A DNA stretch of 64,000 nucleotides from Synechococcus sp. 1G10. GTDB taxonomy: Bacteria; Cyanobacteriota; Cyanobacteriia; PCC-6307; Cyanobiaceae. The notes beneath the pieces were generated by a model that made no database searches, was not told the origin of the DNA, and saw only the letters and a list, made by a program, of their open reading frames with translations. The translations under genes were made by a program, and so were the position numbers. Below, piece after piece: positions 9,045 to 46,891 of this stretch. Numbering within the stretch: position 1 is the first letter of the stretch; every line of letters begins with the position of its first letter. Where the stretch lies: the NCBI RefSeq assembly GCF_002252625.1, contig NZ_NQKW01000003.1:62001-126000 (forward strand). The letters run 5' to 3'.

Positions 9045-9885
9045 ATGGCCGATCTGGTTCTGCTCATCGACCATGAACGGACAGGGCGTGAATCCCTGGC
9101 CACTCAGTTGCTGGAAGCAGGCTTCCTGGTGGCGGAGGCCAAGGATGGTCATCGAGGCCAGGCCATGGCTCTTCAGGCCAATCCGCAGCTGATCGTGATG
9201 GATCTGTTGCTGCCGGGAATCGACGGTCTCACCATTCTGCAGCGCTTGCGGCGGGATCAACGCACCAGTCACCAGTCGGACCCCGATCATGGTGCTCACG
9301 GTCCTGAGCAGCATTGATGACAAGGTGCGGGGCTTCACCTCCGGTGCTGACGACTACCTGATCAAGCCCTACGCCCCTGAGGAACTGCTGGCCCGGGTCA
9401 AGGCACTGCTTCGAGGGCGAGCCACCACACCCCAACTGGTGCGGGCACCGGATCTGCTCAGTTACGGCCCACTCACCCTGGTGCCGGAACGCTACGAAGC
9501 CCTCTGGCTTGAAACGCCAGTACGCCTGACACGCACGGAATTCGAACTACTGCACTGCCTGCTGCAGCGCCATGGTCAGGTGGTGCCCTGGGCAGTGCTC
9601 CTGCGGGAGATCTGGGGCTACGGACCCGAGAACGACGTGGAATGCATCCGCACCCACATCCGCCATCTGCGCGGGAAGCTGGAACGCGACAGCCACAGGC
9701 CCACCCTGATCAAAACGATCTATGGGATTGGCTACTGCCTGGACCTGCCCCTGGATACGGCCACGGAGGCTTACGTCAGCAAAGGACGCCTGGGACTGGT
9801 GGAGCAATCCCCCGATCAGCTCGGTTTGACCAGCGCGCCAAGCTCCCGGGGCTGGGAACGAGGAACATGCCGTCTTGAGGCCTGA
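9045..9885 (+). pseudogene. OmpR/PhoB-type response regulator, frameshifted by a 7-bp duplication
   Basis: Two frames together encode one regulator. The first (from ATG 9045) has the receiver start VLLIDHERTG and the phospho-acceptor segment MDLLLPGIDG, then runs out of frame after RLRRDQRTS. The second frame resumes with RTPIMVLTVLSS, GADDYLIKPY (conserved Lys) and a complete winged-helix domain (about residues 130-235) ending TIYGIGYCLDLP. The break coincides with a perfect tandem heptamer at 9263-9276; deleting one copy gives a single 277-aa protein. As written only a 90-aa truncated receiver is made. No sensor kinase lies nearby, so the signal is unknown. It resembles cyanobacterial regulators such as NblR/SphR in layout, but I cannot assign a name. 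Confidence 0.88.
9263..9276 (+). repeat. 7-bp perfect tandem duplication (CACCAGT x2) causing the frameshift
   Basis: CACCAGT occupies 9263-9269 and again 9270-9276. Removing either copy joins the two response-regulator frames at R-T-S-R-T-P-I-M, the expected receiver sequence. Confidence 0.95.
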
Positions 9886-14678: not shown

Positions 14679-15851
14679 TCAATTGCCAGGCTCAGCTTGC
14701 ACGCTCAATTGGCGCGAATGTTGCCAGACATGGAAGGCCAGCAGCAGCACCAGCGCCGGAACCACGAACCAGATGGTGAAGCTGCGCAGAGGTGAGGCCA
14801 GGGCCGGGATGGTGAGCGGGAGGATCTGCTCAACCAGATAAAGACCGTAAAGGCCGACCAGAAGGATTCCTTCCTTCCGGGAAATCACCCCGCCGGTCCA
14901 GAAGATGGGCAGCAGCGCCAAGGTGGTGGCCACCATGATCGGAAGATCCCGCTGGACCATCACAGGATCCACGCTCAGACCTCTCGATCCTGAGAGAAAG
15001 GCGCACCCCCCCAGGATCACCAGCTGGTTCAGCAGGTTGCTGCCCACCACATTGCCGATAGCGAGATCGGACTTGCCCTTGAGGGCCGCCATGATCGATG
15101 TGACCAGTTCCGGCATCGACGTGCCTGCCGCCACGATCGTGAGACCGATCAGGGTTTCACTGACTCCAAGGCTGAGCGCAATGGCCGTGGCACCTTTCAC
15201 CAGGATCTGGGAACCCCACACCAGCAGGCCGAGCCCGGCAGCCAGCTTCACCGACGCCGGCAGATAGCCGCCCTCCGCTTCCGAGGAATCGATGTCACCG
15301 TCACCGCCGCTGGGCCCTTCTTCCCGGGCCGTGCGCGTTTCCCAGATGGTGTTGATCACAACTCCTGTAAGCAGGGCCAGGCCCGCCTGCCAGGTGACCC
15401 TGCCTGCGGAGGCCATGCCCCAGACCGCCATCGACACTGCCAGCAGCACCGGCACGTCGCGGCGGATCAGGCGGCTGTGCACCCTCAGCGGCAAGATCAC
15501 GGCACTGATGCCGAGCACCACCAGCACATTGAAGATGTTGCTGCCCACCACGTTGCCGACCGCAATGTCGTCAGCGCCCTGCAGCGTGGAGAGAAGGCTC
15601 ACGAACAGTTCCGGGGCGCTTGTGCCCATCGCCACCACGGTGAGGCCGATCACCAGCTGAGGCACCCCCAGAAGCAGGGCCAGGGCCACCGAGCCCTGGA
15701 CGAACAGTTCTCCACCACCGAAGAGCAGGAGGATGCCCACCAGGATCTCGATCACACTCAGCAAACTGGTCTCCACGGGGACCCCGATTATGCCTTGTGA
15801 TAGCAGGGAAGGAACAGCAACCTTGGCCTCCAGCTCGAGACCGCCCTGCAC
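14679..15851 (-). CDS. Calcium/sodium antiporter, CaCA family
   Basis: A 390-aa membrane protein with two alpha-repeats: GTSAPELFVSLLS plus GNVVGSNIFNVL in the first half and GTSMPELVTSIMA plus GNVVGSNLLNQL in the second. About ten hydrophobic segments flank an acidic loop (about residues 165-190). This is the YrbG-type Na+/Ca2+ exchanger architecture. The GTG start at 15851 gives a 25-residue leader; a GTG at 15776 (METSLLSV) is a plausible true start. It probably exports Ca2+ in exchange for Na+ or H+. Confidence 0.9.
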   Translation of the reverse strand: MQGGLELEAKVAVPSLLSQGIIGVPVETSLLSVIEILVGILLLFGGGELFVQGSVALALLLGVPQLVIGLTVVAMGTSAPELFVSLLSTLQGADDIAVGNVVGSNIFNVLVVLGISAVILPLRVHSRLIRRDVPVLLAVSMAVWGMASAGRVTWQAGLALLTGVVINTIWETRTAREEGPSGGDGDIDSSEAEGGYLPASVKLAAGLGLLVWGSQILVKGATAIALSLGVSETLIGLTIVAAGTSMPELVTSIMAALKGKSDLAIGNVVGSNLLNQLVILGGCAFLSGSRGLSVDPVMVQRDLPIMVATTLALLPIFWTGGVISRKEGILLVGLYGLYLVEQILPLTIPALASPLRSFTIWFVVPALVLLLAFHVWQHSRQLSVQAEPGN

Positions 15852-15989: not shown

Positions 15990-17420
15990 GTGGCCATAGC
16001 CCGCCCGATGAGCTGGTTGAACCAGATCAATTCACAACACATCAAAGGGGATGTGTTCGGCGGTCTCACGGCAGCTGTGGTGTCCTTGCCAATGGCCCTT
16101 GCCTTCGGTGTCGCCTCCGGTGCCGGTGCAGTGTCGGGACTCTGGGGCGCAGTGCTTGTTGGTCTGTTCGCCGCACTCTTCGGCGGTACTCCCACCCTGA
16201 TCTCGGAGCCCACCGGTCCGATGACGGTGGTGATGACAGCGGTGATCGCCAGTCTGACGGCGAAGGCGGCCAGTCCTGAACAGGGACTGGCCATGGCCTT
16301 CACGGTGGTGATGATGGCCGGGGCGCTCCAGATTCTGTTCGGTTTCCTGAAGCTGGGCCGCTACATCACGCTGATGCCCTACACGGTGATTTCGGGCTTC
16401 ATGTCCGGCATCGGTTTCATCCTGATCATTCTTCAGCTCGGTCCTTTCCTCGGTCAGGCCATTCCCAAGGGGGGCGTGATGGGTACGCTCACGGCCCTGC
16501 CCCAGCTCATCCCAGCCACGCATCTGCCGGAGCTGATCCTGGCGTTGGTCACTGTCGCGATCATCTGGTTCACGCCAGCCCAGGTGAAGCGGTTCGTCCC
16601 ACCCCAGCTGTTGGCGCTCGTGGTCGGAACGCTGCTGTCGCTCTCACTGCTCCGTGGCGACGTCAGCCCGGAGGTGGAAGGGATCCGCCGCATCGGCGAC
16701 ATCCCCAGCGGATTCCCCCAACTGGTGTTGCCCCACTTCGAGCCAGGCCTGTTGCAGTTGATGGTGGTCGATGCATTTGTGCTGGGTCTGCTGGGCTGCA
16801 TCGATGCCTTGCTCACCGCTGTGGTTGCCGACAGCATCACCCGCACGGAACATAATTCCGACAAGGAGCTGATCGGCCAGGGACTGGGCAATATCGTGTC
16901 TGGCCTGTTCGGTGGCATTGCTGGTGCCGGCGCCACGATGGGCACCGTGGTGAACATTCAGACGGGAGCGAGATCCGCTCTCTCCGGCATCACCCGTGCC
17001 CTGGTTCTGATGGTGGTGATTCTGGGGGCCTCAGGTCTGGCCGCTTCGATCCCGATGGCTGTACTGGCCGGCATTGCCTTCAAGGTGGGGTTTGACATCA
17101 TCGATTGGAGCTTTCTGCGCCGGGCCCACCACGTCTCGATGAAGGGGGCATTGATCATGTACGGCGTGATCCTGCTCACCGTGCTGGTGGATCTGATCGC
17201 CGCAGTCGGTGTGGGCATCTTCGTGGCCAATATCCTCACGATCGAGAAGATGAGCACCCTTGAGACCAAATCAGTGAAGGCGATCAGCACCGCCGACGAC
17301 GACCTCAACCTGCCTGATAACGAGAAGGACCTGCTGGATCAGGGAGGCGGCAAGGTGCTGCTGTTCCAATTGATCGGTCCAATGATCTTTGGTCTGGCCA
17401 AGACAATCTCCCGTGAGTGA
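15990..17420 (+). CDS. bicA: BicA-type SulP bicarbonate transporter, truncated before its STAS domain by a frameshift
   Basis: A 476-aa SulP-family protein. The N-terminal half has the family signature segments GDVFGGLTAAVVSLPMALAFG and ISEPTGPMTVVMTA, followed by about 12 membrane segments and SIPMAVLAGIAFKVGFDIIDW. After FQLIGPMIFGLAKTISRE the frame stops at a TGA (17418-17420). The expected continuation HNAIQEC plus the STAS domain is in the next frame. A tandem GTGA pair at 17413-17420 explains the shift; without one copy the protein would be about 566 aa, normal for BicA. BicA is a Na+-dependent bicarbonate uptake system of the CO2-concentrating mechanism. The GTG start at 15990 has AAGGA 4 bp upstream; ATG 16008 is an alternative. 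Confidence 0.88.
   Translation: MAIARPMSWLNQINSQHIKGDVFGGLTAAVVSLPMALAFGVASGAGAVSGLWGAVLVGLFAALFGGTPTLISEPTGPMTVVMTAVIASLTAKAASPEQGLAMAFTVVMMAGALQILFGFLKLGRYITLMPYTVISGFMSGIGFILIILQLGPFLGQAIPKGGVMGTLTALPQLIPATHLPELILALVTVAIIWFTPAQVKRFVPPQLLALVVGTLLSLSLLRGDVSPEVEGIRRIGDIPSGFPQLVLPHFEPGLLQLMVVDAFVLGLLGCIDALLTAVVADSITRTEHNSDKELIGQGLGNIVSGLFGGIAGAGATMGTVVNIQTGARSALSGITRALVLMVVILGASGLAASIPMAVLAGIAFKVGFDIIDWSFLRRAHHVSMKGALIMYGVILLTVLVDLIAAVGVGIFVANILTIEKMSTLETKSVKAISTADDDLNLPDNEKDLLDQGGGKVLLFQLIGPMIFGLAKTISRE
17413..17420 (+). repeat. 4-bp tandem duplication (GTGA x2) splitting bicA
   Basis: GTGA at 17413-17416 is repeated at 17417-17420. Deleting one copy restores R-E-H-N-A-I-Q and joins the transporter core to the STAS domain. 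The duplication also creates a GTG start overlapping the new stop. Confidence 0.92.
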
Positions 17421-17694
17421 GCACAATGCCATCCAGGAATGTGATTCGATTGTGTTTGATCTCAGTGAGGTTTCGCATATGGGAGTCACAGCTTCTCTGG
17501 CCCTTGAGAATGCCGTCAAGGAAGCCCTGGAGAAACAGCGCAATGTTTACGTGGTGGGTGCTGAAGGCAGCACGCTGCAGCGCCTCAGGAGCCTGAAGGT
17601 GTATGGACTGCTGCCTCCCGATCATGTGGAGCTGAGCCGGGCGGAAGCCCTGACCGATGCTGTCAACTCCCTGCCCAAGATGGGCAGGGCCTGA
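17413..17694 (+). CDS. Detached STAS domain of BicA
   Basis: The frame from the GTG at 17413 reads MSEHNAIQEC and then a STAS fold: CDSIVFDLSEVSHMGVTASLA with the conserved D-L-S and a second half RNVYVVGAEGST. It is the natural C-terminus of the SulP transporter upstream, now in another frame. Because the GTG overlaps the transporter stop (GTGAGTGA), coupled re-initiation could make it as a separate 93-aa protein; that is inference. Otherwise it is untranslated. Confidence 0.75.
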   Translation: MSEHNAIQECDSIVFDLSEVSHMGVTASLALENAVKEALEKQRNVYVVGAEGSTLQRLRSLKVYGLLPPDHVELSRAEALTDAVNSLPKMGRA

Positions 17695-17727: not shown

Positions 17728-18327
17728 TCAGGACTGCAGCACGAAGCCCCAGGTGGTGGCCTTTACGCCAGGAAGATGGGGAAGTAGAAGATCGCCGTGG
17801 GCCATCAAGTTGATCTGACCAAGTGTCTTGTACTTATTCAGGCTCTTGGTAACGGTTACCCGGGTCAGCCCAGTCAGTTCAGCGAGAATCTGGTGGGTCA
17901 GATTCATGTCCTCCAGTGAGAGACTATGCCCTAAACTATTAACTCGACCAAACTGCGCAGCCAGCCAGCGCAACATGGTCAGCAGGCGATCATCGGCCTT
18001 GCGGATCCGGCTGATGCGCATGATTTCCATCGAGCGGCTGATCTGCCGGGTGAGAGATTCAAGGACTTCGGCATCCGTGGCCGTACGTCCCTCAAGTGAG
18101 ACAGCGGAGATCGTGCTGATTTCGTTGCGGCACTCAAAGGTTGCCTGGCTACCGAGGATGAGATCGCCGGGCCCCCATATCATCAAAGTGACCAGTTCAG
18201 CATCTTCATTCCAGGTGACCTGCCGGACATAGCCATCGCTGATCAACCAGGTCATTCCAGTCGGTATCACCGAGTTAGGCTTGAGTTGAAGGAATGGACA
18301 ATGTCCAGGGTTGGGTGGTGGCATCAC
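17728..18327 (-). CDS. Crp/Fnr-family transcriptional regulator
   Basis: A 199-aa protein with a short cNMP-binding-like beta domain (about 10-100; WGPGDLILGSQATF) and a C-terminal HTH: LSLEDMNLTHQILAELTGLTRVTVTKSLNKYKTLGQI at about 140-176, typical of the Crp/NtcA superfamily. The effector is unknown; Fe-S Cys ligands of Fnr are absent. The two first codons are both ATG. It converges on the bicA STAS end with 33 bp between stops, so direct autoregulation of bicA is possible but not shown. Confidence 0.85.
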   Translation of the reverse strand: MMPPPNPGHCPFLQLKPNSVIPTGMTWLISDGYVRQVTWNEDAELVTLMIWGPGDLILGSQATFECRNEISTISAVSLEGRTATDAEVLESLTRQISRSMEIMRISRIRKADDRLLTMLRWLAAQFGRVNSLGHSLSLEDMNLTHQILAELTGLTRVTVTKSLNKYKTLGQINLMAHGDLLLPHLPGVKATTWGFVLQS

Positions 18328-46794: not shown

Positions 46795-46891
46795 CGGTTG
46801 CTCCTGTAGGGGTTTATCTGGTGAGGTGGCTTAGGAATGCCCTGCTGGAGAGCTGATCCAGAACAGACACTGTGGGTCAGCTCTGGGCCTC

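Follow-up and report, generated by a model that had tools for sequence, protein, structure and literature searches.

The window analysed here is a 64,000-nucleotide stretch of the Synechococcus sp. 1G10 draft genome, which comprises 84 contigs and 3.34 Mb at 99.9% completeness. It carries a bicA gene that is encoded in two reading frames and lies between a divergent calcium/sodium antiporter gene upstream and a convergent gene for a Crp/Fnr-type regulator downstream (Table 1). The first chain has the SulP membrane core: its Pfam Sulfate_transp match (4.1e-96, residues 19-391) covers the whole Pfam core, and the NCBIfam BicA model NF050096 gives 786.9 bits over profile positions 1-463 of 547. 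The second, out-of-frame chain matches the same model at profile positions 463-546 of 547 (88.0 bits), has a Pfam STAS match of 2.5e-9 that begins at profile position 35 of 106, and matches chain positions 60-145 of the solved STAS structure 6ki2. The curated cut-off of NF050096 is 880 bits; the intact protein of the same-genus genome G002 scores 896.8, and the study gene does not reach the cut-off in one chain. Between positions 15750 and 17900 we found a single promoter-like match, located inside the gene, with 0.5 expected from shuffled sequences, and no terminator-like site.

Table 1. Features of the bicA locus, in window coordinates.
Feature	Position	Strand	Details
Calcium/sodium antiporter, upstream, divergent (context)	14679..15851	-	TIGR00367 251.6 bits, cut-off 179.65
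bicA, truncated: SulP membrane core and first third of STAS	15990..17420	+	GTG start, 476 aa, TGA 17418-17420
Linker and N-terminal STAS third kept on the core chain	17223..17417	+	BicA residues 412-476; strand 456-465, helix 469-475; AlphaFold2 model of G002, Pfam
Tandem duplication GTGA-GTGA	17413..17420	+	Single GTGA in all 7 intact orthologues of the genus and in the decayed gene of G005
Out-of-frame STAS remainder	17413..17694	+ (+1 frame)	93 aa from GTG 17413; Pfam, BicA model, 6ki2
Crp/Fnr-type regulator, downstream, convergent (context)	17728..18327	-	Pfam HTH_Crp_2 28.2 bits, cut-off 27

The two frames meet at a tandem GTGA-GTGA, written GTGAGTGA, which is read directly in the window sequence. 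The core frame crosses the joint as ...ATC TCC CGT GAG TGA, and the frame carrying the rest of BicA reads GTG AGT GAG CAC from 17413. When one GTGA copy is set aside the peptide ISREHNAIQEC is restored and the frame stays open to the gene end, and no lesion besides the duplication was seen in either bicA reading frame. As a string the doubled GTGA is unremarkable (262 exact tandem tetramers are present in the window, and the two strands together hold two occurrences of GTGAGTGA), and it is comparison with relatives that makes the doubling stand out. All seven intact orthologues from the same genus (G001, G002, G003, G004, G006, G007 and G008) have a single GTGA and encode BicA in a single frame 561-566 aa long. 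The eighth genus relative, G005, likewise has no extra copy, but its gene is a decayed pseudogene. Among the relatives compared, the doubled GTGA is private to the study genome. Immediately before the repeat, the study genome and G006 have the codon CGT, G001, G002, G003 and G008 have CGC, and G004, G005 and G007 have CGA; since the nearest relative, G001, has CGC, the study genome carries one silent change there as well. A preliminary description of this DNA had proposed a 4-bp duplication that ends the transporter core, places a GTG start, in frame with the remainder, over the new stop and can be removed to give back the normal protein, and each of these points is supported. Disruption of the frame relative to intact orthologues, one mark of a pseudogene, is thus present in the study bicA.

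We searched 40 genomes, the study genome included, at the DNA level, and bicA or its remains were present in all eight other members of the genus. The G005 gene (G005:C60:18262-19424) lies at the same locus, is missing about 293 and 213 bp relative to G004, and contains in-frame TAG codons and a 6-bp insertion; this sister genome has lost its bicA independently. In the best 80 of 220 relatives, which include six genus members, the core and STAS are in one frame at 78 of 80 BicA loci, the other two being cut by contig ends. No stop inside the gene was found among these 80 best matches, and a split at the study genome's cut position occurs at none of the 78 assessable loci. A family sample of 81 genomes gave 78 BicA-like matches in 61 genomes at E 1e-100 or better, with 20 of the 81 lacking a match at 1e-100. 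Of the 78 matches, the study bicA alone stops at profile position 466, the remaining 77 extending to 524 or beyond. Thirteen of the 81 genomes have a match over the curated BicA cut-off, and the study genome falls outside these 13 because of its frame break; its core chain is 88-96% identical to six genus orthologues. The two-part transporter put forward in the preliminary description therefore has no counterpart split at this place in the sets examined (78 loci from the best 80 of 220 relatives, and 77 family matches).

Two further arrangements in these sets are recorded here as observations in their own right. The BicA-like gene at G011:C1:951416-953074 has one TAA inside a match that reaches at least position 524 of the profile, and G053 carries two adjacent BicA-like genes (G053:C15:13515-16922) and a third elsewhere. 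According to PMC9477826, BicA is absent from some isolates, and the bicA of freshwater alpha-cyanobacteria was acquired from beta Synechococcus. Among the papers screened by title and opening of the abstract, none was recognised as dealing with a frameshifted or split bicA, and we make no claim that such a case is unpublished.

The cut does not separate bicA from its STAS domain, as had been described at first, but falls inside that domain. In the intact G002 protein the Pfam STAS match spans residues 455-539 and the solved STAS 6ki2 corresponds to residues 423-560, and the first chain ends at 476, so that the downstream chain amounts to about two thirds of STAS. The idea that a complete STAS domain is made as a separate chain was rejected, since by Pfam, 6ki2 and an AlphaFold2 model alike the remainder lacks the first third. 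The model was built for the intact G002 STAS region (L037:7234-7698; model residue 1 is BicA 412) from 38 sequences, with a mean pLDDT of 78.2 and residues 1-18 below 50. Its elements run helix 32-41, strand 45-54, helix 58-64, helix 66-70, strand 74-85, and so on, and in this model of G002 the break comes after residue 65, in a kink of the first long helix. The membrane chain is thus predicted to retain the first main STAS strand and half a helix, and the remainder to be without both.

Alignment of known structures to this model places the break close to a possible hinge. With VIA-align, which gives only the first and last aligned residue of each range, the alignment of 6ki2 is confined to model residues 68-150, BicA 479 onwards (54% identity and an rmsd of 1.1 over 82 residues), and the other 49 of the 50 structures listed begin to align at model residues 18-31. 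6ki2 is the BicA STAS itself and, among the structures listed, the closest in sequence to the model; Foldseek gives a longer alignment of 6ki2 to the model, at an rmsd of 14.8. Because 6ki2 aligns only from model residue 68, the segment before that point would be placed elsewhere in the crystal chain. The aligned ranges suggest exchange of this segment with a partner chain as the simplest account of the 6ki2 pattern. If such a swap is right, no more than about three residues separate the cut from a natural hinge, and the out-of-frame remainder encodes almost exactly the compact part that follows the hinge.

The coupled restart proposed in the preliminary description fared less evenly. We simulated a tandem 4-bp duplication at each position of bicA from G001, G002 and G006. 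With the new stop allowed anywhere, 615/1611, 1254/1611 and 1402/1596 positions, respectively (38 to 88%), gave a start in frame no more than 12 nt away from it. When the stop was also required to lie within 12 nt of the duplication, 55, 56 and 96 positions remained (3.4-6.0%), and the tight form seen here, with the start codon overlapping the stop or no more than 6 nt before it, arose at 31/1611, 27/1611 and 46/1596 (1.7-2.9%). The tight stop-start arrangement is uncommon, yet easily met by chance once looked for. The rarity of the tight form is what stands in favour of the proposed coupling; a nearby start as such is common in the simulation, and no Shine-Dalgarno sequence is present in the twenty bases preceding GTG 17413 (TCTGGCCAAGACAATCTCCC). 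TTG 17389 and ATG 17479 are in-frame alternative starts for the remainder. A better Shine-Dalgarno-like GAGG precedes ATG 17479, in codons common to the genus relatives, and a start there would give a still shorter piece. We did not accept the restart as proof of design, given that a start near a new stop arises at 38 to 88% of simulated positions.

Both parts of the gene carry the signature of selection until very recently. For the study genome and G001, dN/dS is 0.080 before the break and 0.152 after it; ten other pairs range from 0.074 to 0.121 before the break and from 0.099 to 0.163 after it, the latter range excluding G004-G007, a near-identical pair whose value of 0.618 comes from three changes. 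With sites at which G002 matched neither genome dropped, the study branch has 17 nonsynonymous and 43 synonymous changes and the G001 branch 8 and 34 (Fisher p 0.35). The ratio on the study branch is not different from that of G001, so no relaxation is yet detectable, as expected for a recent event. By an eye count, 9 of the 17 changes on the study branch and 1 of the 8 on the G001 branch fall at sites invariant in the other seven genomes, which is a hint of loosened selection on the study bicA. The low dN/dS and the lack of any other lesion seen indicate that bicA was under selection until very recently, and the latter also makes the duplication itself look recent.

We compared the contig that holds the window (G000:C13) with G002 over 204 kb, of which 181,754 bp aligned. 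Exact extra tandem copies of 3-20 bp number four in the study genome (6, 3, 7 and 4 bp) and five in G002 (3, 9, 6, 3 and 3 bp). Out-of-frame exact tandem copies of 2-20 bp number six in the study genome (four of 2 bp, one of 4 bp and one of 7 bp) and none in G002, with only the 4- and 7-bp ones polarised by third genomes. This one-sided excess may reflect slippage-prone mutation in the lineage, deletions in G002 or assembly errors. Window positions 46889 and 60226 are among the out-of-frame copies. The 7-bp copy, CACCAGT twice at 9263-9276, lies 8.2 kb from the GTGA site and breaks a gene for an OmpR-family response regulator (about 9045-9885, forward strand), the first chain ending at 9317. 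This regulator is intact in G001 and G002, its G002 protein consisting of a receiver and Trans_reg_C, and the extra CACCAGT copy is absent from G001, G002, G003 and G005. Apparent split genes were found in both directions, for 10 of 175 G002 genes in the study contig and 5 of 167 in reverse. Inspection of seven of the eight other study-genome splits and two of the five in G002 revealed one 2-bp tandem copy near a gene end; the rest were 1-bp indels, longer insertions or deletions, and diverged intergenic stretches. A mutator origin of the tandem duplications was considered and, as far as MutS is concerned, set aside, the MutS N-terminal domain being in an open frame in 9/9 genus genomes.

The part of BicA that binds substrate appears untouched by the break. 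The motifs EPTG, CIDALLT and GAGATMGT, mapped by hand as chain index plus 1, are shared without change by the 6ki1 chain, G002 and the study protein. The BicA HCO3-/Na+ site has been placed at Thr69, Asp258, Thr262 and Gly300-Thr302 (Synechocystis numbering) in the review PMC13249358, which also describes the BicA STAS, residues 409-564, as essential for transport and dimerisation, citing Wang 2019. PMC6497670 reports that SLC26Dg without its STAS domain was compromised in transport and kept its membrane structure and dimers; by this result some activity of the study core chain may remain. The three other SulP proteins of the study genome score 116-130 bits against the NF050096 cut-off of 880 and are not BicA, so that by these sequence scores the broken gene appears to be the genome's only canonical bicA. 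All nine genus genomes have two SbtA-type and two ChpXY genes.

Taken together, we consider it probable that the locus records a recent, private, truncating 4-bp indel in the only canonical bicA of the genome, encoding a dispensable low-affinity transporter whose function has most likely been lost. The tandem duplication shifts the bicA frame, and the predicted product is a 476-residue chain with the membrane part and substrate site intact. With STAS cut inside its first long helix, BicA would most likely be inactive or strongly impaired, and the out-of-frame remainder would at most be a low-level by-product. Retention of two SbtA-type and two ChpXY genes, together with repeated loss of bicA in the genus, would explain why the break is tolerated. 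Several observations count against such a loss: dN/dS is low and no further lesion was seen, the tight stop-start arrangement is uncommon, at 1.7-2.9% of positions, the cut falls at the apparent STAS hinge, and the SLC26Dg result leaves room for some activity. There is a modest chance that the strain has one GTGA and that the doubling arose in sequencing or assembly or belongs to a minority allele. The assembly is a draft in 84 contigs, and the study contig has six out-of-frame tandem copies against none in G002, the 4- and 7-bp ones only 8.2 kb apart and both gene-breaking; however, the site is 79.4 kb into a 217-kb contig, far from its ends, and split genes relative to G002 appear in both directions. 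Duplications of 4 and 7 bp are also not the usual homopolymer error, which counts against an artefact.

Functional readings of the doubled GTGA were weighed against this. In one, translation stops at TGA 17418-17420 and restarts at GTG 17413, and the 93-residue chain joins the tethered STAS third to give a two-chain BicA. The overlapping stop and start arise in few simulated duplications, the cut after residue 476 adjoins the point (BicA 479) from which 6ki2 aligns to the model, and the downstream frame is still conserved. Against these points, GTG 17413 has no Shine-Dalgarno, a split at the same place is found in none of the 7 intact genus orthologues, the 78 assessable loci from the best 80 of 220 relatives or the 77 other family matches, and the segment swap is read from aligned ranges only; we regard this arrangement as unlikely. 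Because the cut coincides with the apparent STAS hinge in 6ki2, assembly of two chains keeps some probability, and the chance of a working transporter put together across the swap hinge, from the membrane chain with the first STAS third and a separate 93-residue remainder, is slimmer still. Very improbable is recoding or phase variation, in which a frameshift at GAG-TGA or gain and loss of a GTGA toggles full-length BicA. A two-unit direct repeat can drop one copy by slippage, and the stop codon does not interrupt the other frame, but the joint has no homopolymer or known slippery site and no genus relative keeps the repeat. By slippery-site rules a slip from GAG to AGT would not re-pair, and two repeat units are few for phase variation.

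If loss is the right reading, low-affinity bicarbonate uptake has been lost a second time within this picocyanobacterial genus, independently and much more recently, and the organism would offer a natural setting in which to study the part that BicA plays alongside SbtA and the CO2-uptake complexes. Should the two pieces cooperate instead, an SLC26-family protein would have been divided within its regulatory domain by one natural mutational step. It would then be shown that SLC26 STAS domains can be provided in trans, and the locus would directly test whether the segment exchange suggested from 6ki2 has a function.

The closest known system is BicA1, the SulP/SLC26 Na+-HCO3- symporter of cyanobacteria (NF050096; 6ki1, 6ki2), with which the study gene shares the membrane core, the site motifs and a STAS encoded in order. 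Unlike BicA1, it is in two frames, its first chain reaches only profile position 463 of 547 and scores below the cut-off, and its STAS is not contiguous with the membrane domain, since the frame break lies inside STAS. The decayed bicA of G005 is at the same locus in the same genus and likewise no longer encodes BicA in one frame, but it has large internal deletions and several stops, whereas one 4-bp lesion was seen in the study gene. STAS-deleted SLC26Dg, as described in PMC6497670, resembles the study core chain in being a SulP core without a complete STAS; its deletion was engineered, whereas the core chain in Synechococcus sp. 1G10 keeps a STAS third.
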